64,000 nt of DNA from an uncultured Roseobacter sp. (lineage in GTDB: Bacteria > Pseudomonadota > Alphaproteobacteria > Rhodobacterales > Rhodobacteraceae). Location: positions 186,001-250,000 of the forward strand of contig NZ_CANMDB010000006.1 in NCBI RefSeq assembly GCF_947496515.1, in the 5' to 3' direction. Positions 54,598 through 63,226 of this stretch are shown here, piece by piece (position 1 is the first letter of the stretch; the number at the start of each line of letters is the position of its first letter). A program made the translations under genes and the position numbers. The notes beneath the pieces were generated by a model that was not told the DNA's origin, did no database searches, and saw nothing but the letters and a program-made list of their open reading frames with translations.

Positions 54598-55626
54598 TCA
54601 TGCAGAAGACCGCATGATGAGTTTCCCTTCAAACAGAACATCTTGGCGGGTTTCGGCCCGGCTGCCGTCTTCGATCTGTCGAAACAGGATTTCGGCGCTT
54701 TGATCCGCAATCGAATCATAGTCCTGCGCCACCGTGGTCAGAGGCGGGCAGGTAAAACGCGAAAACGGATGATCGTCATGCCCGGCCACACGCAGCGCGC
54801 AATCGGGTCCGTGACCGACCCTCAGCCTGCGTTCATAGGCGGCAGCCAGAAAGCCCACGGCCAGCCGGTCGTTGCTGCACAGGACCGTGTTCGTGGCCAG
54901 CTGGCCGCTGTCGATGACCTCCAGTCCGCCGCGGTAGCCGATGCTCTCGAACTCCCAGCTGTCGCCCGGTACGCGGATGACCTGCGGTGTGTGACCGAGC
55001 CTTTCCATCGCGCGGTGGTATGCCTCGCGGCGCTTGTTGGCATTGGGGTTCAGGGGCGGCATCTCGAAAAAACAAGGCGGCGCGCCGGTCCGGCAGAGGT
55101 AATCGATAATCAACCCCACCGCCTGCAGGTTGTCATGCCCCACAAAGACGTCCCCGATGCCGTCCAGATTGCTATCAAAAAGGACCGTGGGCACATCGCG
55201 GCAGAAACTCTCCACCTGCGCCCTGTCCGAAGCGCGCCCCAGCGGCGCCAGAAACACCCCCGCGGGTTTGAGCGAGCGCAGGCTGTCAAGGATCCCGGTC
55301 TCAAGGTCGGGCGAGCCATGGGCGCTGAACAGTGTCGGCGAAAAGCCCGCGTCGATGCAGCGACGTTCGATCCTGCGCGCGATCTCGGCAAAGAAGGGAT
55401 CAGCCAGATAGGGCACGACGATGCCGATGTTTTTGGTCAGCCGCCGGTTCTGGTTCATGGCGTAGATGTTGGGGCGGTAGTCGTGCTGCTCCAACGCGGC
55501 CTCTATACGCGCGCGGATGGTTTCGCGCACGCTGCCGGGGTCGTTGAAATACTTTGACACCGTCGGCCGCGAGATCCCGCTGACAGTCGCGAACTCGGCC
55601 ATGTTCCTGATCTTGCGCTTACTCAT
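54598..55626 (-). CDS. LacI-family transcriptional regulator of the polyol operon
   Basis: A 342-residue regulator: N-terminal helix-turn-helix with EFATVSGISRPTVSKYFNDP (residues about 9-28) and hinge, then a type I periplasmic-binding-protein-like effector domain (IGIVVPYLADPFFAEIARRIE). It is the first gene of the leftward smo-mtlK set, 97 bp before smoE. A polyol or its phosphate is the expected inducer. It is divergent from ycaO. Confidence 0.92.
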   Translation of the reverse strand: MSKRKIRNMAEFATVSGISRPTVSKYFNDPGSVRETIRARIEAALEQHDYRPNIYAMNQNRRLTKNIGIVVPYLADPFFAEIARRIERRCIDAGFSPTLFSAHGSPDLETGILDSLRSLKPAGVFLAPLGRASDRAQVESFCRDVPTVLFDSNLDGIGDVFVGHDNLQAVGLIIDYLCRTGAPPCFFEMPPLNPNANKRREAYHRAMERLGHTPQVIRVPGDSWEFESIGYRGGLEVIDSGQLATNTVLCSNDRLAVGFLAAAYERRLRVGHGPDCALRVAGHDDHPFSRFTCPPLTTVAQDYDSIADQSAEILFRQIEDGSRAETRQDVLFEGKLIMRSSA

Positions 55627-55801
55627 CTTCCGCCTTCGATTGGGGCGCTGCGGTGGGCCTCGTTAAGGGCTGAAAGACTTAGCGCGCGCCAAATCCAGGT
55701 TTGACCATAGAAAATTCGGTTGCTGCCGGTCAAGATGGTTGGAGATCGCCGCAGCACAATCGGCATTTCGAAGAGGTGCGCAATGTGGTTTGAAGAAGCG
55801 G

Positions 55802-57040
55802 ATGCAGAAAGTCGCTGACATGTTCAACCTCTCCGCACCGCTGCCGAAGGCAACACAGCCCGGCGCGCAGCGGCTGTGTCTGCCGGATGAAACGCTGGCG
55901 CGGGTCCTGCCGCTGCGGGCCGCCTTTGGCGTTACCCGGCTGGCCACTGTCACCGGGCTCGATCGGTTGGGGATACCTGTGGTGATCGCCATGCGCCCCA
56001 ACGCCCGCTCCATCGCGGTGTCGCAAGGCAAGGGGGCGACGCTCGCGCATGCCAAGGTCTCTGCGTTGATGGAAGCAGTCGAGATCTGGCACGCCGAGCA
56101 TTTTGCGCCGCCGCTCTATTACGCCAGCCGGGTCGATCTGGCGGCGCGTCACGACCTGATTGATCTGGAGGCGCTGCCACATACCCCTGCGGGCGCTTTG
56201 CCCGGAACGATGCGGCAGCATTGGGTTACGGCGCAGGATATCCTCGGCGACCGGATCTGTCTGGTCCCGTGGGAAATGGTGCATGCAGACTATACCGAAC
56301 CGCGCAGTGCCGAGGCGGGCCACTACCCCGCCAGCACCAATGGTCTGGCCTCCGGGAACCACCCGGTGGAGGCGATCTGCCACGGTATTTGCGAGGTCGT
56401 GGAACGGGATGCGCTGGCCCTCTGGCACGCGCGCCCCGTGGACGGGCAGCGGGCCAGCCAGGTCGATCTGGCAACGGTGACTGATCCGAGCCTGCGCCGA
56501 ACGCTGGGCCGCATTGAGACGGCGGGGCTGGGCTGCACCGTCTGGGATGTGAGCTGTGATACACAGGTGCCCAGCTTCATGGCGGTGATCCATGAGGACG
56601 GACCCGCTGCGCATCTCGGCCTCGGCTCGGGCAGCCACCCGGATCCCGTGGTGGCCCTGCACCGGACGTTGAACGAGGCCGCGCAGACCCGCCTGAACTA
56701 TATCTCCGGCGCGCGGGACGACCTTTTCGAGGCGGAATACACCGTCGCCGGGCGCGCCGCCAAACACGCGGGCCTTGCCGAACTGCTGGACCACACAGGC
56801 GGGGCCCGGCCTTTTGGTGCCGCGGGCGGCGCGTCCCACGCCACACTGAACGAAGATCTGCACTGGCTGATGGCGCGACTGCAGGGCGCAGGCGTGCGCC
56901 AGATCGCTGTCGTGGATCTGACCGATCCGCGCTTTGACATTCCTGTGGTGCGGGTGATCATCCCGGGGCTCGAAGCACCGCACGATGATGCGGCCTATGT
57001 GCCGGGGTCGCGGGTGCGGTCGCAGTGGCAGGCGGCATGA
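55802..57040 (+). CDS. YcaO-domain cyclodehydratase/thioamidation-type protein
   Basis: YcaO enzymes use ATP to activate backbone amides, forming azolines on Cys/Ser/Thr or, with TfuA and a sulfur source, thioamides. The protein (about 412 residues) has the YcaO core: GLDRLGIPVVIAMRPNARS, SQGKGATLAHAKVSALMEAVE with the ATP-binding Glu residues, ASTNGLASGNHPVEAICHGICEVVERDALALW and SGSHPDPVVALHRTLNEAAQTRLNY. The C-terminus has no PxPxP tail. Possible starts are 55739 (TTG), 55802 and 55820; none has a strong ribosome-binding site. It overlaps tfuA by 4 bp. Confidence 0.93.
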   Translation: MQKVADMFNLSAPLPKATQPGAQRLCLPDETLARVLPLRAAFGVTRLATVTGLDRLGIPVVIAMRPNARSIAVSQGKGATLAHAKVSALMEAVEIWHAEHFAPPLYYASRVDLAARHDLIDLEALPHTPAGALPGTMRQHWVTAQDILGDRICLVPWEMVHADYTEPRSAEAGHYPASTNGLASGNHPVEAICHGICEVVERDALALWHARPVDGQRASQVDLATVTDPSLRRTLGRIETAGLGCTVWDVSCDTQVPSFMAVIHEDGPAAHLGLGSGSHPDPVVALHRTLNEAAQTRLNYISGARDDLFEAEYTVAGRAAKHAGLAELLDHTGGARPFGAAGGASHATLNEDLHWLMARLQGAGVRQIAVVDLTDPRFDIPVVRVIIPGLEAPHDDAAYVPGSRVRSQWQAA

Positions 57041-57795
57041 TTGTCTTTGCAGGTCCCTCCATCGCGGGCTGCGCCCCGGACAGGCTCGATGGATTCGATC
57101 TGCGCCCGCCCGTGCGACAAGGCGATGTCTATCTGGCCAGTCTGGAGCGCCCCCGCGCCATCGGTATCATCGACGGGTATTTCGACAGTGTGCCCGCGGT
57201 CTGGCACAAGGAGATCCTCTGGGCGCTCAGCCTGGGCATTCCGGTGCTGGGGGCTGCCAGCATGGGCGCGCTGCGCGCGGCAGAGCTTGATGTGTTCGGG
57301 ATGATCGGGGTGGGGGAGGTTTATGCGGCCTATCGCGACAATGTGCTGGAGGATGATGACGAGGTCGCGCTGCTGCATGGCCCGGCGGAAGTGGGCTATC
57401 CAAACCTGACGCTGGCCATGGTCAACCTGCGCGCGACGCTTGCGGCGGCGGAGGCCGAGGGGATGCTCAGCGGTCCGGAGACCAAGGCCCTGATTGCGGA
57501 AGGAAAGGTGATCTTTTACCACCACCGCACCTGGGACAGCGTGTTGGCCAAAGCACCATCCGTGCGCCGCGCGTCGCTTGCAGACTGGATCGCGGCGCAT
57601 GAGGTCGACCAGAAGGCACGCGACGCCGATGCGCTTCTTGCGCTGATGCAGGCTGGCTCCGTGCTGCCGCCAGCGGTAGATTTTCATTTCGAGGAAACCG
57701 GCCTCTGGCAGGAGGCGACGCAGCGCTGGCAAGCGCGCGCGCCCCTTAACGATACAGCCGGTCCATCGCGCGGTCTTTCTTTTCTGGATGACTGA
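57037..57795 (+). CDS. TfuA-like protein (YcaO partner)
   Basis: A 252-residue TfuA-like protein: IVFAGPSIAG at the N-terminus, PAVWHKEILWALSLGIPVLGAASMGALRAAELD in the middle and GMIGVGEVYAAYRD follow the family pattern first seen in the trifolitoxin cluster. TfuA proteins are thought to supply or handle sulfur for YcaO-dependent thioamidation, as in methanogen methyl-coenzyme M reductase. It overlaps ycaO by 4 bp and is followed by the metallopeptidase gene after 117 bp. Confidence 0.92.
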   Translation: MIVFAGPSIAGCAPDRLDGFDLRPPVRQGDVYLASLERPRAIGIIDGYFDSVPAVWHKEILWALSLGIPVLGAASMGALRAAELDVFGMIGVGEVYAAYRDNVLEDDDEVALLHGPAEVGYPNLTLAMVNLRATLAAAEAEGMLSGPETKALIAEGKVIFYHHRTWDSVLAKAPSVRRASLADWIAAHEVDQKARDADALLALMQAGSVLPPAVDFHFEETGLWQEATQRWQARAPLNDTAGPSRGLSFLDD

Positions 57796-57912
57796 TGCGG
57801 CAACCTGCAGGGGGTCGGGCTTCGGTGCCCTCCAAAAACTGCAGAGGATTGGACGAAGCCGCCCGGTTACGCTAGCCATGGGATACCACAGCACCCAAAA
57901 AAGGGGTTTGTC

Positions 57913-59169
57913 ATGACCGGGACCCGCTTCAAACTCTTTCCGCAGCCACAGTTTCTGGAAAGCTTCGGCGAGCCGGAGATCGTCGAGGTCTCCTCGCCCG
58001 TGGGCAGCGTGGGGCCCGGCCCGGAAGATCACCGCATGTACACCATCTTTCCCATCGGCAAGACCCAGCCCTACGGCATCTCACCGGATGGGCAGGATCC
58101 TGCGGCTCCGCCCTGGACCGGTCCGGTCGAGCCACCCGCAGAGCCCGATGCCGATGGGCATTTCGATTATCTCGAACCCGGCACGCCGCAGTTCGAGACC
58201 GCGCATCTCTTTGGAACCGTGCGGTTTGTCATGGACATCTGGGAGGATTACTTCGACCGCGAAATCCCCTGGCAGGGCGATACACGTTACGAAAAACAGG
58301 AACTCACGATCCTGCATTCGCTGGAGAACGCCTATTCCGGGTTCGGCTTTATCGAGATGGGGGTGGACCGCAGCGATGGCGAGACCCGGCCCTTTGCGCT
58401 GAACTTCGATGTGATCGCCCATGAAGTCGGTCACGCGATCATCTACTCGGAGGTGGGCGTGCCGGATCCGCGCCGCTTTACCGGCGAGTATTTCGGCTTT
58501 CACGAAAGTGCGGCTGATCTGGTGGCGCTGATCTCCTCGCTGCATTTCAACTCTCTGGTGGATTTGCTGTTGGAGAATACCCACGGCAATCTTTACATGC
58601 TCAATGCGGCCATGCGCATCGCCGAGCTGTCGGAGAACAAGCAGATCCGTATTGCCGCCAATGACGTCCGGCTCAGCGAATTTGCAAAAGGCTGGGTGAA
58701 GGAACACCATCTTGGCCAGCCGCTTACGGGCGCGTTTTTTGACATTCTGGTCGATATCTTCCACGAGATGTTGCTGGACTACGGTGCCATTTCCCCCGAG
58801 ATGGAGGCGCTGTCGGACGAGCTTTTGGCCACGCATTCCTACGCGCCGGTCATGCAGGAGCTTTTTGACGAGGCCTATGCCGATCATCCCGATCTGTTCA
58901 AGCTGGCGCTGCTGGATGCGCGGGACATTCTGGGCACCTATCTGGCCGATACCTGGCAGAGGCTCAGCCGTCAGGATCTGAGTTTTGCGGATGTGGCCGA
59001 CGCCATGCTGGCGGTCGATCAGGCCCATACGGATGGTCGGTTTGCCACGATCATCGCGGGTAATTTCCGCCTGCGCGACATTGGCGAGGCGGTTGTCGGC
59101 CCGCAGCTGGCGCCCCTGGGAGAGGACAGCCACGCAAATTCGGTGCGCACCATGCTTCCAATGGACTGA
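57913..59169 (+). CDS. Cytoplasmic gluzincin-type zinc metallopeptidase (HEVGH + E)
   Basis: A 418-residue protein with no signal peptide. Residues 170-174 are HEVGH and Glu198 in FGFHESAADL provides the third zinc ligand, the HExxH plus ExxxD pattern of thermolysin-like (M4-type) peptidases; the 24-residue spacing is compatible. Thermolysin itself is exported with a propeptide, both absent here. The N-terminal 160 residues are unfamiliar. AAAAGGGG precedes the ATG. It stands between TfuA (117 bp) and the SGAR-repeat gene (74 bp) on the same strand; whether it cuts that protein is not known. Confidence 0.8.
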   Translation: MTGTRFKLFPQPQFLESFGEPEIVEVSSPVGSVGPGPEDHRMYTIFPIGKTQPYGISPDGQDPAAPPWTGPVEPPAEPDADGHFDYLEPGTPQFETAHLFGTVRFVMDIWEDYFDREIPWQGDTRYEKQELTILHSLENAYSGFGFIEMGVDRSDGETRPFALNFDVIAHEVGHAIIYSEVGVPDPRRFTGEYFGFHESAADLVALISSLHFNSLVDLLLENTHGNLYMLNAAMRIAELSENKQIRIAANDVRLSEFAKGWVKEHHLGQPLTGAFFDILVDIFHEMLLDYGAISPEMEALSDELLATHSYAPVMQELFDEAYADHPDLFKLALLDARDILGTYLADTWQRLSRQDLSFADVADAMLAVDQAHTDGRFATIIAGNFRLRDIGEAVVGPQLAPLGEDSHANSVRTMLPMD

Positions 59170-59243
59170 AAAGGCGTCTTGATGTATTGGTTAACGAATA
59201 TGCGGTGCCCGGGCTTGTTTGCCCCTTTAAAGGAATGGTTATT

Positions 59244-59732
59244 ATGAAAGAAACGCTTTTTTCGTCGACATCCATCGTGCTTTTCGGACGTCATGTAGAT
59301 GACCTGTCAGTTGGTAGCGGATCCGATACTGCCGCCAAGAAGCCCGATGGTCAGTTCGCCCGCATCTACGGCTTTACCTATGACGGTATCTATTTTGAGA
59401 TACCGGCACCTGTTTTGATGATGGTGAAAGGGGCGGGGGTCAAATGCGATACGGTCCCAGTACCGGGGCCAAACCCGCGGGACAAGAAATTCTACGCTGA
59501 GCTTAAGGCCTGGATCGTGAAACGCGACGACGAAACCGTGCGTCTCGATGTGGAACAGGGCAAGTTCGAGGACGTGCTGCTCAGCGTTGGTATGGACGGT
59601 GTCGTCGGTGTGTCTGGCGCGCGGGTCTCGGGCGCGCGTGTGTCCGGCGCGCGGGTCTCGGGTGCCCGGATCTCGGGTGCACGGGTGTCGGGTGCACGGA
59701 TCAGCGGCGCGCGCGGTGATGCGAGCGACTAG
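59244..59732 (+). CDS. Small protein with seven tandem VSGAR/ISGAR pentapeptides
   Basis: A 162-residue protein that I do not recognise. Residues 1-122 form a mixed, slightly acidic domain (VLFGRHVDDLSVGS, ARIYGFTYDGIYFEIPAPVLMM, FYAELKAWIVKRDDE) with no signal peptide or membrane helix. Residues 123-157 are seven five-residue repeats, V/I-S-G-A-R, followed by GDASD. The register A-R-V-S-G resembles pentapeptide-repeat proteins (A-x-L-x-x) with Arg and Val/Ile. AAAGGA lies 10 bp before ATG 59244. Position after YcaO-TfuA and a peptidase makes a substrate role possible. Confidence 0.75.
   Translation: MKETLFSSTSIVLFGRHVDDLSVGSGSDTAAKKPDGQFARIYGFTYDGIYFEIPAPVLMMVKGAGVKCDTVPVPGPNPRDKKFYAELKAWIVKRDDETVRLDVEQGKFEDVLLSVGMDGVVGVSGARVSGARVSGARVSGARISGARVSGARISGARGDASD
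59610..59714 (+). repeat. Seven in-frame 15-bp repeats encoding (V/I)SGAR
   Basis: Seven contiguous 15-bp units, all in frame, each encoding V/I-S-G-A-R. Ser uses TCT, TCG, TCC and AGC, Ala GCG, GCC and GCA, and Arg CGG, CGT and CGC, so the units differ mostly at synonymous positions, while V alternates with I only conservatively. This implies an old repeat held at the protein level. Confidence 0.9.
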
Positions 59733-60467
59733 CGCCGCGGTTTGCCGAAAAAGGCAGCAGCCGATGCGGTCAAGAGTCTTGCTTGCCGTGAACGCGCTCT
59801 TCACAACGCCCTTTCGAAGGGCGTTGGGCCAAACCGGTGGTTTGGCCGTCACGGCGTGCTGATCTCAGACGCCGAAGTCCTGCAGCGGTATGGTCGCGGA
59901 TTGGCCATACACGCACGCAGCTGTTTGCACGACCTGCTGAGAGCAACGCAACAGTGCGTAAGTCCATGGCCGCACTGAAATACGGGTGCAGTCGGCGAAA
60001 GGCCTTCGAAGGCCTTTCCTGCCCCGCGTCGGGCGTCGTCGCATCGGATCAAGCCGTCAGGTTTTGTCTGTCTGTTCGTCATCGGCGCGCTTGGGTCTCA
60101 ACGATACGGTTTTCCTTACAGATCTGTATTCTTTGTACTTTGCCGACGCGGTGTCGGATCGCATTGGGACCTCTTGGGTATCCGCCTTGGGGCGCGCCTC
60201 GCTGCCGGGAGATCGGACACAGCGGGGACGCAGCACCGACCACTGAGTGCCGGTGATCGTTGAGCATCCAGCCTGGGATAACGACACCAGTCTTATCGTT
60301 TATCGCTGATCTGCGTTTTCCGGTAGCAAGAGCTTTGGCTTGGTCGATCCGCGCACGTCGCTCAGATCACGTCAAATCCCGGGCACTTTGTTGGTTGCTG
60401 CCTTCCGCCCCGCCGTATCTGAAGGACACCGGACACCGTCACGCTGCCAGATCACTGGATCCGGGCG
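59733..60467. other. Gene-poor region with hairpins after the SGAR-repeat gene
   Basis: 735 bp without a supported gene. Three strong symmetric structures stand out: AACGCCCTT-TCG-AAGGGCGTT (59805-59825), GGCCAAACC-GGT-GGTTTGGCC (59827-59847) directly after it, and a perfect 20-bp palindrome (59998-60017, AAAGGCCTTC and its complement). The first two are 72-115 bp downstream of the repeat gene and could terminate it. The remainder shows no coding pattern. Confidence 0.6.
59805..59847 (+). terminator. Tandem hairpins, possible terminator of the peptidase/repeat unit
   Basis: Two perfect 9-bp stems with 3-nt loops lie 1 bp apart, 59805-59825 and 59827-59847. There is no long T tract. They start 73 bp after the SGAR-repeat gene and are the first strong secondary structure in the direction of transcription. 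Confidence 0.5.
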
Positions 60468-62258
60468 CTAAAGCCCCGCGCGTTTCATCCCGTCGAAAAA
60501 ATGCTGCACGTCTTCCTCGAACTTGTCAGGCTGCACCGCGGCCCAGCGTTCGATGGAGAAGTTGGGATGTGCCTCGCGCACCATATCCGCCTGGCGCCGC
60601 GCATCCTCAAGACGGCCCAGATGTGCATAGCTCGCCGCCAGGATCCGTCGGCCTTCCGTGGGGTTTTGCATCTTCTGGATGGTCGCAATCGCCTGATCGT
60701 ATTGCTTGAGATTGAAATAGGCTCCACCGAGATGCCAGACGTATTGATCTGGATAGAACGGGTTCAGGCGCATCGCGTTCAGCAACAGGTCGATCGCTTC
60801 TTCAGAGCGCCCCATATGCGCCAGTGCATCCGCCATATCAGACATCAGATCAGCATCGTTCGGGTTCAGCTTCAATGCGCGCTCATAGGCATTGATGGCG
60901 GGGTCATGTTCCTTGCGATACAGATGCGCAAAGCCCAGCTCGCCGTACCCGCGCGCATCCGCGTCATCCAGATCAATCGCTTCCCGCGCGAAATTCAACG
61001 CGTCATCCAGCGCCATGTCGGGCTCATCGGTCCAGTCATACCGCCAGTCGAGGTTGAAGGTCCGCGACTTTGCTGCGTAGGCGCGGGCGTAGCGCGCATC
61101 GCTGCCGATCGCATTCTCGTAGAGGTGCCGCCCCTGCCGGACCTCGGGCTGGGTGTATTTCAGGACATGCCGGTTTCCCTGTAACACGTAACCGTAGGCC
61201 ATCAGGTTTGCCGGTGGCAGCAGCCGCATCCGGTCCCGTTCCGTCGCCTCGATCCGCGCCGCGGTGGCCGAGACGATGATCTGGGTGATCTCGTCCTGCA
61301 GATCAAAGATATCCTCGATGTTGCGATTGTATTGCTCGCCCCAGATGGTGCGGTCCTGCAGCGCGTCGAGCAGTTGCAGGGTGATCCGCATCCGGTTGCC
61401 CGATTTGCGCACCGTGCCATCTACCGCATAGCGCACCCCAAGCTCACGGGCGGCCTGCGCGGGCGATTTGCTGCGATCGGCGTAGAGATTGGCGGAGCCC
61501 CGCGCGATCACAAAAAACTCATGAAAGCGCGACAGGTTGGTGGTGACGTCTTCCGTCAGCCCGTCCGCAAACCAGCCATCGGCAATGTCGCTGCCCTGAA
61601 ATCCAAAGGGCAATACCACAATGGACTGGCTGGCAACGGGGCGTTCCTTGAATTCGGCCGAGTTTTCCAGATTGCGCCGCAGCCCCGGTGTCATCGCCGC
61701 TGTCGTGGGGTTCTGATGCACCTGAAAGACGTCAATGGTGCGGCCGATATTCTTGAAATCCTGACCGCCCAGGTATTCGTAGCCGTAGTTCAGCTTGTTG
61801 CACACATGATCATAGGTCGCCCCCGAAATGCAGACCTGGCCGGGGGCGGCAAAACTCTCGATCCGGGCGGCGATGTTGATGCTTTCGCCGGTGATCTCGG
61901 TACCACTGAACAGCACCTCGCCCAGATTGATCCCAAAGCGGAACCATATCTGTTCACCGGGAAGCAGGCCGTTGTTCTCCTGCTCCAGCCTGTTCTGCAT
62001 CTCGATGGCGAAGTTGACCGCATCGACGGCGCTTTCAAACACCATAAAGGCGCTATCACCGGCAGAGCTGCGGAATTCGCCGCCGAAAGAGGTGATCACG
62101 GCGCGAAATGTCTCCATCCGGCCCGCCACGGACAGGGTCGTGCCCACCTCGTCACGGCTCATCATTGTGCTGAAGTTGGCCACATCGGCAAAGACCACCG
62201 CCATCAGGCGACGCTTCAATGCCGGTTGCCCACCGGAATGATGTGCCGTGTCAGCCAA
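60468..62258 (-). CDS. Class III adenylate/guanylate cyclase domain protein with TPR repeats
   Basis: A 596-residue protein if started at TTG 62258. The cyclase domain (1-170) has metal-binding Asp25 (FADVANFS) and Asp68 (SSAGDSAF), and Asn128/Arg132 (INIAAR) of the transition-state site. The purine-specifying Lys and Asp positions read Ser64 and Glu125. Residues about 220-350 are the domain common in such proteins (IVVLPFGFQGSDIADGWFADGL) and 380-580 are TPR repeats (AINAYERALKLNPNDADLM). TTG overlaps the upstream acetyltransferase stop by 8 bp; ATG 62204 is the alternative. Confidence 0.88.
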   Translation of the reverse strand: MADTAHHSGGQPALKRRLMAVVFADVANFSTMMSRDEVGTTLSVAGRMETFRAVITSFGGEFRSSAGDSAFMVFESAVDAVNFAIEMQNRLEQENNGLLPGEQIWFRFGINLGEVLFSGTEITGESINIAARIESFAAPGQVCISGATYDHVCNKLNYGYEYLGGQDFKNIGRTIDVFQVHQNPTTAAMTPGLRRNLENSAEFKERPVASQSIVVLPFGFQGSDIADGWFADGLTEDVTTNLSRFHEFFVIARGSANLYADRSKSPAQAARELGVRYAVDGTVRKSGNRMRITLQLLDALQDRTIWGEQYNRNIEDIFDLQDEITQIIVSATAARIEATERDRMRLLPPANLMAYGYVLQGNRHVLKYTQPEVRQGRHLYENAIGSDARYARAYAAKSRTFNLDWRYDWTDEPDMALDDALNFAREAIDLDDADARGYGELGFAHLYRKEHDPAINAYERALKLNPNDADLMSDMADALAHMGRSEEAIDLLLNAMRLNPFYPDQYVWHLGGAYFNLKQYDQAIATIQKMQNPTEGRRILAASYAHLGRLEDARRQADMVREAHPNFSIERWAAVQPDKFEEDVQHFFDGMKRAGL

Positions 62259-62871
62259 TGTTGTCGTCCCAAGGGTTCGGCGAAAAGGAAATCGCGGAGC
62301 GCGCGCGCGCAGTTTCAATGACCTGCTCGCGAGTTGCAATCCATTCCGTACTTAAAATACCCGCGATGACCGTATCTCGGCGTTGACCGTTCACAAACCA
62401 GCCTTCGCGGATCCGGCCTTCCTCCGAAAAACCGAATGACTCCAGCACCCGCGCGCTTGGCGTGTTGTCCTGTCGGTAAAAGGTCGTGACCCGGTGCAGC
62501 CGCAACCGCAGAAACGCCAGATCGAGGAGGGCCACGGTCATGGCCTTGGCCAGCCCGCGTTTGCGAAATGGAGCGGCCACAAAAAACGGCAGGACCGCAT
62601 CGCCCTGAATATAGTTGACCGCGTCAAGCCCGCCGATGCCCCCAGGCGCGCCATCCGGCTGATCCGCGATAAACCAGAAGGCACGCGGATTGCCCTTTTG
62701 CGCCAGCGCATCCCGCCATGTCTCGCGCAGGGCATCTGCGCTGACCGGAACGGGCAGGCTGCGGTCGAAGAGCGCGGCGTCTTCCATATGCCAGAACCAG
62801 TCGGCGATCCGCGAGATATCAGCGAGTTCCATGGGGCGCCAGGTCAGCAGGTCGGCAGTCTCTTTGGTCAT
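62251..62871 (-). CDS. GNAT-family N-acetyltransferase (RimJ-like)
   Basis: A 206-residue GNAT protein: WRPMELADISRIADWFWHMEDAALFDRS at the N-terminus, LPFFVAAPFRKRGLAKAMTVALLDLAF (the RKRGLA acetyl-CoA loop) and RVTTFYRQDNTPSARVLESFGFSEEGRIREG, the classic RimJ/RimL C-terminal pattern. AGGA lies 8 bp before ATG 62871. It overlaps the cyclase gene by about 8 bp, so the two are probably co-transcribed, though no functional link is evident. Confidence 0.88.
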   Translation of the reverse strand: MTKETADLLTWRPMELADISRIADWFWHMEDAALFDRSLPVPVSADALRETWRDALAQKGNPRAFWFIADQPDGAPGGIGGLDAVNYIQGDAVLPFFVAAPFRKRGLAKAMTVALLDLAFLRLRLHRVTTFYRQDNTPSARVLESFGFSEEGRIREGWFVNGQRRDTVIAGILSTEWIATREQVIETARARSAISFSPNPWDDNIG

Positions 62872-63226
62872 GTGATCTATCCTCATAGCCGGAACAAAAA
62901 TGCCGCGCCACGGGCCGCAGGACCGCATACGGACACGTCCGCCTAGAAACTACCCCTCGCTCATTAATGACGTTTTGTACTACCGTACGTCCCGAAAAAG
63001 CAACGAATCTTCGGGAGTTGCAGGACGACGGTAAACGTGTTGCGCGGCCCGGGTCTGTGAAGTTCCTCACGCCTCGGTAGAAAAAAATATCCGTCGCACG
63101 ACGCAGATGTCAGGTTGCCAGCCCGGCACCCGATAATTTCCGATTAATTTCATCAACTATATTGCCTTCCCGGGCGAAATTGGTAATTGAGTAAAACCAT
63201 AAGGATTTCATCATAGGGAGACACCC
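62872..63226. other. Divergent promoter region of acetyltransferase and iron-binding protein genes
   Basis: 355 bp without a gene. It includes an inverted repeat TCCCGAA (62990-62996) and TTCGGGA (63010-63016), and an AT-rich stretch (63130-63200) before the iron-binding-protein gene where TTGCCT (63161-63166) and TAATTG (63183-63188) are a weak promoter candidate. I see no clear Irr, RirA or Fur box. Confidence 0.45.

Follow-up and report, generated by a model that had tools for sequence, protein, structure and literature searches.

A probable multi-core RiPP precursor with an exchangeable repeat tail beside YcaO, TfuA and peptidase genes in Roseobacter

The repeat protein described here is probably a multi-core RiPP precursor, the units of which would be thioamidated by a YcaO-TfuA enzyme pair and perhaps cut by a peptidase encoded in the same gene row. 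Its gene lies in a window of 64,000 nucleotides (the whole stretch of DNA that was analysed) from a genome of 4.9 Mb. The open reading frame at 59244-59732 (+) encodes 162 amino acids, and its tail ends in seven V/ISGAR units. It is the last of four genes that lie on one strand in the order YcaO, TfuA, M4/M36-like metallopeptidase and repeat protein (Table 1), and this gene set recurs in many marine and soil bacteria. In a genome scan, the closest named relatives of the protein were found in Roseobacter. The initial annotation had overlooked this context, in which the YcaO and TfuA genes precede the repeat protein on its own strand.

Table 1. Features of the gene row and its neighbours in the window
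Feature	Coordinates	Strand	Basis
YcaO (start codon uncertain; TTG of longest frame)	55739..57040	+	PF02624 E 2.6e-75
TfuA	57025..57795	+	PF07812 E 1.2e-45; PDB 6xp8 TfuA domain 3.2e-32
M4/M36-like metallopeptidase (thermolysin/fungalysin fold)	57913..59169	+	motif, AF2, Foldseek
N-terminal (proposed leader) domain of repeat protein, mostly beta	59244..59609	+	conservation, AF2
Proposed core array, seven tandem V/ISGAR units	59610..59714	+	translation, tandem-repeat scan, relatives
Acidic C-terminal end GDASD	59715..59729	+	translation
Class III adenylate/guanylate cyclase with TPRs, convergent with cassette	60468..62339	-	PF00211 9.6e-9, TPR_2 1.3e-14
GNAT acetyltransferase, 3' end overlapping cyclase start	62251..62928	-	PF13302 1.3e-15

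The adjacency of ycaO and tfuA is a feature of YcaO-TfuA thioamidated RiPP clusters; here the two genes overlap on the same strand, and an internal ATG of TfuA at 57037 overlaps the YcaO stop codon (ATGA). The best NCBIfam matches of the two proteins are the two McrA-glycine thioamidation models, both below their cut-offs; for YcaO the best by E-value is TIGR03266 (McrA-glycine thioamidation YcaO, 4.2e-64). Moreover, the top PDB match of YcaO is MJ1094 (6pe3, 3.8e-25), which we take to be a YcaO of the thioamidating kind and which has the stretch TNGLASGN..EAI.H...E..ERDA in common with it. Thioamidating YcaOs also match the window's YcaO with better scores than SagD types do. The AF2 model of the metallopeptidase (pLDDT 86.7, pTM 0.90) matched 29 chains in Foldseek at E≤0.001 (1.4e-7 to 9.6e-4), all of them M36 or M4 enzymes, including M36 7qfy at 1.4e-7 and thermolysin 4tnl at 3.8e-6. 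H170, E171, H174 and E198 of its HExxH and ESAAD motifs are invariant in 29 aligned sequences. It scores under the Pfam gathering thresholds of both families (Peptidase_M4, 15 vs 22.4 bits; M36, 11.8 vs 23.3 bits), and inspection by eye revealed no N-terminal signal peptide.

Two palindromes, AACGCCCTTTCGAAGGGCGTT and AAAGGCCTTCGAAGGCCTTT, were spotted by eye at 59805-59825 and 59998-60017. Both fall within the 735 bases that separate the repeat protein from the cyclase, and neither has an Rfam match. A search for RNA families over 55000-63000 gave none reaching the gathering threshold (Rfam), and scans for sigma-70-like promoters and terminator-like elements gave no decisive result. Elsewhere in the same genome, a second YcaO locus (L114) lies on contig C10 at about 156000-163500, comprising glutamine-synthetase-like, PCMT-like methyltransferase, nitroreductase-like and YcaO genes. 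Beside these genes lies a 122-aa open reading frame that includes a poly-Gly stretch and finishes in a Cys-containing segment, and the whole looks like a separate azole-type RiPP locus.

The array units run in the order (V,V,V,V,I,V,I)SGAR over residues 123-157 (59610-59714), exactly where the initial annotation had placed seven such units. A tandem-repeat scan of the 64-kb window ranked the array at the top of nine rows (period 15, 6.6 copies, score 93). The synonymous drift noted earlier is equally real, Ser being encoded by TCT, TCG, TCC and AGC and Arg by CGG, CGT and CGC. Among the seven units, pS is 0.55 and pN 0.13. When units of the same gene were compared in 63 arrays, pS was 0.71, which is near saturation, and pN 0.08, amino-acid changes being rare; the pattern behind this set accepts five-residue units of set letters only and leaves other array types uncounted, L006, L007, L015 and L016 are excluded, and L008 and L009 duplicate L026 and L034, with both counted twice. 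These values bear out the earlier proposal of selection on the protein sequence. Furthermore, the last-unit codons ATC-AGC-GG are kept in 7/7 Roseobacter genes compared, and four-fold sites of L017 and L018 differ by 0.03 at matching unit positions and by 0.69 at non-matching ones; most other gene pairs are too diverged for position-specific likeness to show. A recent slippage array, against which the initial annotation had also argued, is thus rejected on the near-saturated synonymous differences and the position-specific codons of the Roseobacter genes.

The tail follows a conserved N-terminal domain, whose reading frame is preceded by AAAGGA. Seven residues of this domain (A39, R40, Y42, F44, W90, R100 and G106) are invariant in 45 aligned sequences, and such conservation alongside varying tail units is a feature of precursors of YcaO-TfuA thioamidated RiPPs. 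In the AF2 model of the repeat protein, ten-residue means are 71-89 over residues 11-110 except for 55 at 21-30, and the whole-model pTM is 0.57. Fold searches with the whole 162-aa model, whose disordered tail makes them weak evidence, gave nothing at E≤0.001 in Foldseek and a best Z of 2.7 in VIA-align. The precursor profile matched only four weak WRAP-T designs in the PDB (E 0.22-0.40).

Of the 115 relatives that the genome scan turned up, the best 80 form the set analysed here; near-copies remain in the counts, for instance L017/L018 and L092/L094, which are identical over the last 150 residues. A periodic tail stands behind a related N-terminal domain in all of the best 80 of 115 loci (each P≤0.0033, 300 shuffles), and the array as a chance product is therefore ruled out. 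Its period is five residues in 71 of these 80, six in 5 and seven in 4. The consensus units of the best 80 of 115 are VSGAK (34), VSGAR (16), MSARG (7), VSGGR (3), MSVHG, MTGRAQ and MGRSGGA (2 each) and 14 others that occur once each; the units found by lineage also include ARGAN, VGGGK and YSGGKA. Exactly one large hydrophobic residue is present in 74/80 consensus units, and their net charge is +1 in 72/80 and 0 in 8/80. The protein terminates in D in 65 of the best 80 of 115 relatives and in E in a further 9. VSGAR arrays comprise 6-10 units. The initial annotation had suggested aligning orthologues to see whether the number of units varies while SGAR stays fixed. The number does vary between relatives, but SGAR is not fixed, as the unit differs between lineages. 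The N-terminal domain stays while the tail is exchanged between lineages, yet the tail is uniform within each gene.

The window's genus itself contains such differences. Of the 12 that encode the protein, VSGAR tails are found in eight genomes, VSGAK-type tails in two (L123, mixed with SGAR, and L124) and six-residue YSGGKA tails in two (L125 and L126), the last representing unit exchange or gene replacement within one genus. The YSGGKA tail is otherwise seen in Aminobacter (L095). The precursor of 162 aa in the window compares with stop-to-stop frames of 156-332 residues in the 80 relatives, in which the stretch from the conserved ARIY motif to the stop is at least 118 residues. In Paracoccus litorisediminis (L083) the tail is unusually long, with about 15 GMSxx-like units that fall into several sub-types. 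Outside the 80, a Paracoccus plasmid (L001) encodes a short tail (P 0.017), and the tails of L012-L014 are not periodic. Additionally, tblastn on plasmids gave 50 records with a related N-terminal part, 48 from Rhizobium and 2 from Paracoccus.

The repeat protein, the enzyme pair and the peptidase occur together. Among the best 80 of 115 loci, YcaO is present in 67, TfuA in 68 and the peptidase in 72. A cyclase-like match is found in 74 of the same best 80 (that of L090 is weak, 29 bits), with a GNAT homologue beside it on the same strand in 51. A transporter is not general in the cassette, an ABC-transporter-like gene, named by eye, being present in 13/80 loci. TfuA is missing from the locus DNA in 12/80, and ten of those genomes were searched as a whole, L068 and L078 being left out. 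Six hold TfuA elsewhere (L041, L045, L047, L059, L069 and L096), bringing the count to 74/80, and four have none anywhere (L027, L073, L088 and L091).

Co-occurrence was further assessed in 59 relatives of the window's genome at the level of genus, family and class, with a precursor cut of E<1e-8. The same 14 of the 59 genomes hold precursor, TfuA and peptidase; from the remaining 45 all three are absent. The Fisher P is 7.5e-14, or 2.0e-5 for the genus alone (12 vs 7), in values that ignore kinship between genomes that are not independent. The 14 comprise 12 of the 19 genomes of the genus, the window's own included, and two of other genera (G001 and G007). All 12 precursors of the genus carry the repeat tail, and those of G001 and G007 are repeat-less distant relatives. 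Five weak precursor hits (G315, G005, G316, G317 and G324) were set aside as chance, with best E of 1.4e-4 to 7.7e-4 and coverage of at most roughly the final third of the profile. As a separate observation, matches to the cyclase-TPR query lie beside two other YcaO-TfuA pairs in the L096 genome (L108, L109, L112 and L113), and an association of cyclase-TPR-like genes with YcaO-TfuA may be general.

Some loci break the pattern. Six Rhizobium/Mesorhizobium loci, namely L003-L005, which lie on plasmids, and L088, L091 and L096, are without YcaO and TfuA in the locus and keep the leader, the peptidase and a 7-residue repeat tail. The L096 genome holds two YcaO and two TfuA genes elsewhere, and no second precursor matching the precursor queries was found at these loci. 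TfuA is not found on the L003 and L004 plasmids, and two copies lie elsewhere on the L005 plasmid. A genome search found neither YcaO nor TfuA anywhere in the Mesorhizobium genomes of L088 and L091, contrary to the prediction of the RiPP reading that the precursor never occurs without the enzyme pair in its genome. The five units of these two genes are nearly identical and their codons drift, 38/66 and 42/66 same-residue codon pairs being different. The four Rhizobium tails have three units each, whose differing ends (AL, VM and F[IV]) are alike between strains. As the units of L088 and L091 are conserved without YcaO and TfuA, the tail can be kept without thioamidation, which shows that it is able to have a role of another kind. 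In a peptidase (M4) tree with L102-L104 as the outgroup, the six loci form one clade whose sister, L087, has both enzymes, and the loss is therefore probably secondary. Presence of the pair needs two changes on this tree, the second at the gammaproteobacterial pair L069/L073. The L069 genome holds its TfuA outside the locus; L073 and L027, without TfuA, are metagenome-assembled genomes.

Further exceptions concern the other genes. Three Paracoccus genomes carry YcaO-TfuA and the precursor without such a peptidase. The distant loci L102-L104 have YcaO, TfuA, the peptidase and the N-terminal domain but no repeats. Their common tail is SYxAHMQxxHRGGKL, and they possibly represent a single-core form. 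In the loci without YcaO-TfuA, a small protein of about 110-125 aa is encoded just after the repeat protein (L088 8586-9240, L091 8592-9390, L003 6600-6932, L096 8615-8950), with no relatedness apparent between the Rhizobium and Mesorhizobium proteins.

A multi-core pathway could work as follows. The N-terminal domain of about 115 residues would serve as the leader recognised by the maturation enzymes, and the tail as an array of seven near-identical core units. YcaO would activate a backbone amide with ATP and, together with TfuA, exchange oxygen for sulfur, leaving at least one thioamide in each unit. The M4/M36-like peptidase would act next, either freeing the units or removing the leader. 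Thermolysin cuts before a large hydrophobic residue. If the peptidase cuts likewise before the single large hydrophobic residue of a unit, VSGAR-type pentapeptides would result, and such a preference would give one product per unit. The cyclase might serve regulation, and the GNAT enzyme might cap or protect the product. Azoline formation is disfavoured as the general chemistry because the consensus units of L071, L075 and L076 (3/80) are without Ser, Thr or Cys, on which backbone thioamidation is still possible. The window's own unit contains Ser, and this leaves room for an azoline (TOMM/LAP) in the window alone.

The precursor reading draws on the upstream enzyme pair, the same-genome co-occurrence of precursor, TfuA and peptidase, the conserved leader with its variable but internally uniform tail, the unit types without Ser, Thr or Cys, the scores of YcaO and the thiovarsolin precedent; it is opposed by the repeat loci without YcaO/TfuA, the peptidase-less Paracoccus genomes, the two metagenome-assembled genomes without TfuA, the repeat-less L102-L104 and the missing general transporter. 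Alternatively, the tail might be modified by YcaO-TfuA and left uncut, so that the product would be the whole protein with its polythioamide tail, with an intracellular role such as metal binding or sulfur storage. We regard this as unlikely. The missing general exporter, the signal peptide not seen by eye, the 6-10 units of VSGAR arrays, the conserved acidic end and the Paracoccus genomes without peptidase would suit it, but the peptidase gene is present in 72 of the best 80 of 115 loci, its zinc ligands are invariant in the 29 aligned sequences, and one large hydrophobic residue per consensus unit in 74/80 suits regular cutting. At the same low likelihood, one might extend this view to a widespread class of proteobacterial YcaO-TfuA substrates so far unreported, in which an intact folded protein with a thioamidated polymer of 5-7-residue units would itself be the functional end product within the cell. 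The polymer of one Rhizobium/Mesorhizobium clade would then have persisted after its modifying enzymes were lost, and a small protein is now encoded next to it.

Less probable again is a tail outside RiPP chemistry, with a structural or binding role: the folded N-terminal domain would carry it as a disordered linker or for assembly or docking, and YcaO-TfuA would modify something else, such as the N-terminal domain itself. The persistence of the tail in two Mesorhizobium genomes without the pair, the disorder predicted by AF2 and the +1 charge of 72/80 consensus units favour such a role. They are set against the same-genome co-occurrence with TfuA, the single clade beside L087 that suggests secondary loss, and the freedom with which unit length and residues change, even within one genus, with a charge of 0 in 8/80. 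The short right-handed pentapeptide-repeat coil of the initial annotation was set aside as very improbable: the Pfam Pentapeptide score (PF00805) of 19.5 bits is close to its gathering score of 20.2 but under it, AF2 with 45 sequences gives pLDDT <50 over residues 119-160 and no coil (folding when bound would escape such prediction), the ARGAN unit of L075 is without a large hydrophobic residue, and the five-residue register cannot hold because 9 of the best 80 of 115 relatives and two of the 12 genomes of the genus have 6- or 7-residue units.

Under the preferred multi-core reading, many orphan YcaO-TfuA pairs of Proteobacteria have a candidate substrate in this family. According to a 2021 survey (PMC8120280), all YcaO-TfuA thioamidated RiPPs then known came from Actinobacteria, while 70% of the clusters were found in Proteobacteria, with more than 1000 proteobacterial TfuA clusters reported. 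The TfuA clusters that this source describes for Ruegeria, Rhizobium and other genera contain Nif11-like precursors, distinct from those with a repeat tail, and the word 'repeat' is absent from its main text. Precursors were identified there by RiPPER with standard settings, for which PMC6511847 gives a default precursor window of 20-120 aa. RiPPER-based surveys could thus miss this substrate family because its precursors exceed that range. A search of the open-licence literature yielded no description of the family, and four repeat strings gave no paper there. The enzyme pair and the multi-core idea have precedents. None was found in the open-licence literature for the leader family, the peptidase-cyclase-GNAT setting or the unit exchange. 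Marine Roseobacter and Ruegeria strains offer a ready test ground, and the family forms a natural series: its leader was retained through many exchanges of the core unit, even inside a single genus.

Several known systems share parts of this arrangement. Like fungalysin M36 and thermolysin M4, the third gene product has the fold and the HExxH...E zinc ligands; unlike them, it is below the Pfam cut-off, shows no signal peptide by eye and is encoded beside a precursor. Pentapeptide repeat proteins (PF00805) share the period of five residues, one hydrophobic and one small among them, but here the score is below the cut-off, no coil is predicted and the period is not kept in relatives. The McrA-glycine thioamidation YcaO and TfuA of methanogens are related by sequence to the window's pair, whereas their substrate is a folded metabolic enzyme and the window's pair misses both NCBIfam cut-offs. 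Cyanobactins and phomopsin involve different enzymes and chemistry. Some cyanobactins and the fungal phomopsin, named in PMC6511847, have several cores per precursor, as here. The closest precedent appears to be the thiovarsolin pathway of Streptomyces varsoviensis (PMC6511847), in which varA, varY and varT are reported to be enough to turn a repeated core into a thioamidated tripeptide. As in that pathway, a YcaO-TfuA pair lies beside a precursor with a tail of core repeats, those of thiovarsolin being imperfect, and the number of repeats differs among relatives (PMC6511847). Thiovarsolin has APR/GPR-type repeats, comes from an actinobacterium and is described in PMC6511847 as having a cluster without a specific protease. 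The [A/G]PR core of the thiovarsolins is absent here, as neither the window's units nor any of the 80 consensus units contains Pro. Unlike thiovarsolin, the present family combines a conserved N-terminal domain of about 115 residues with a peptidase gene in the row and SGAR-like or other 5-7-mers.
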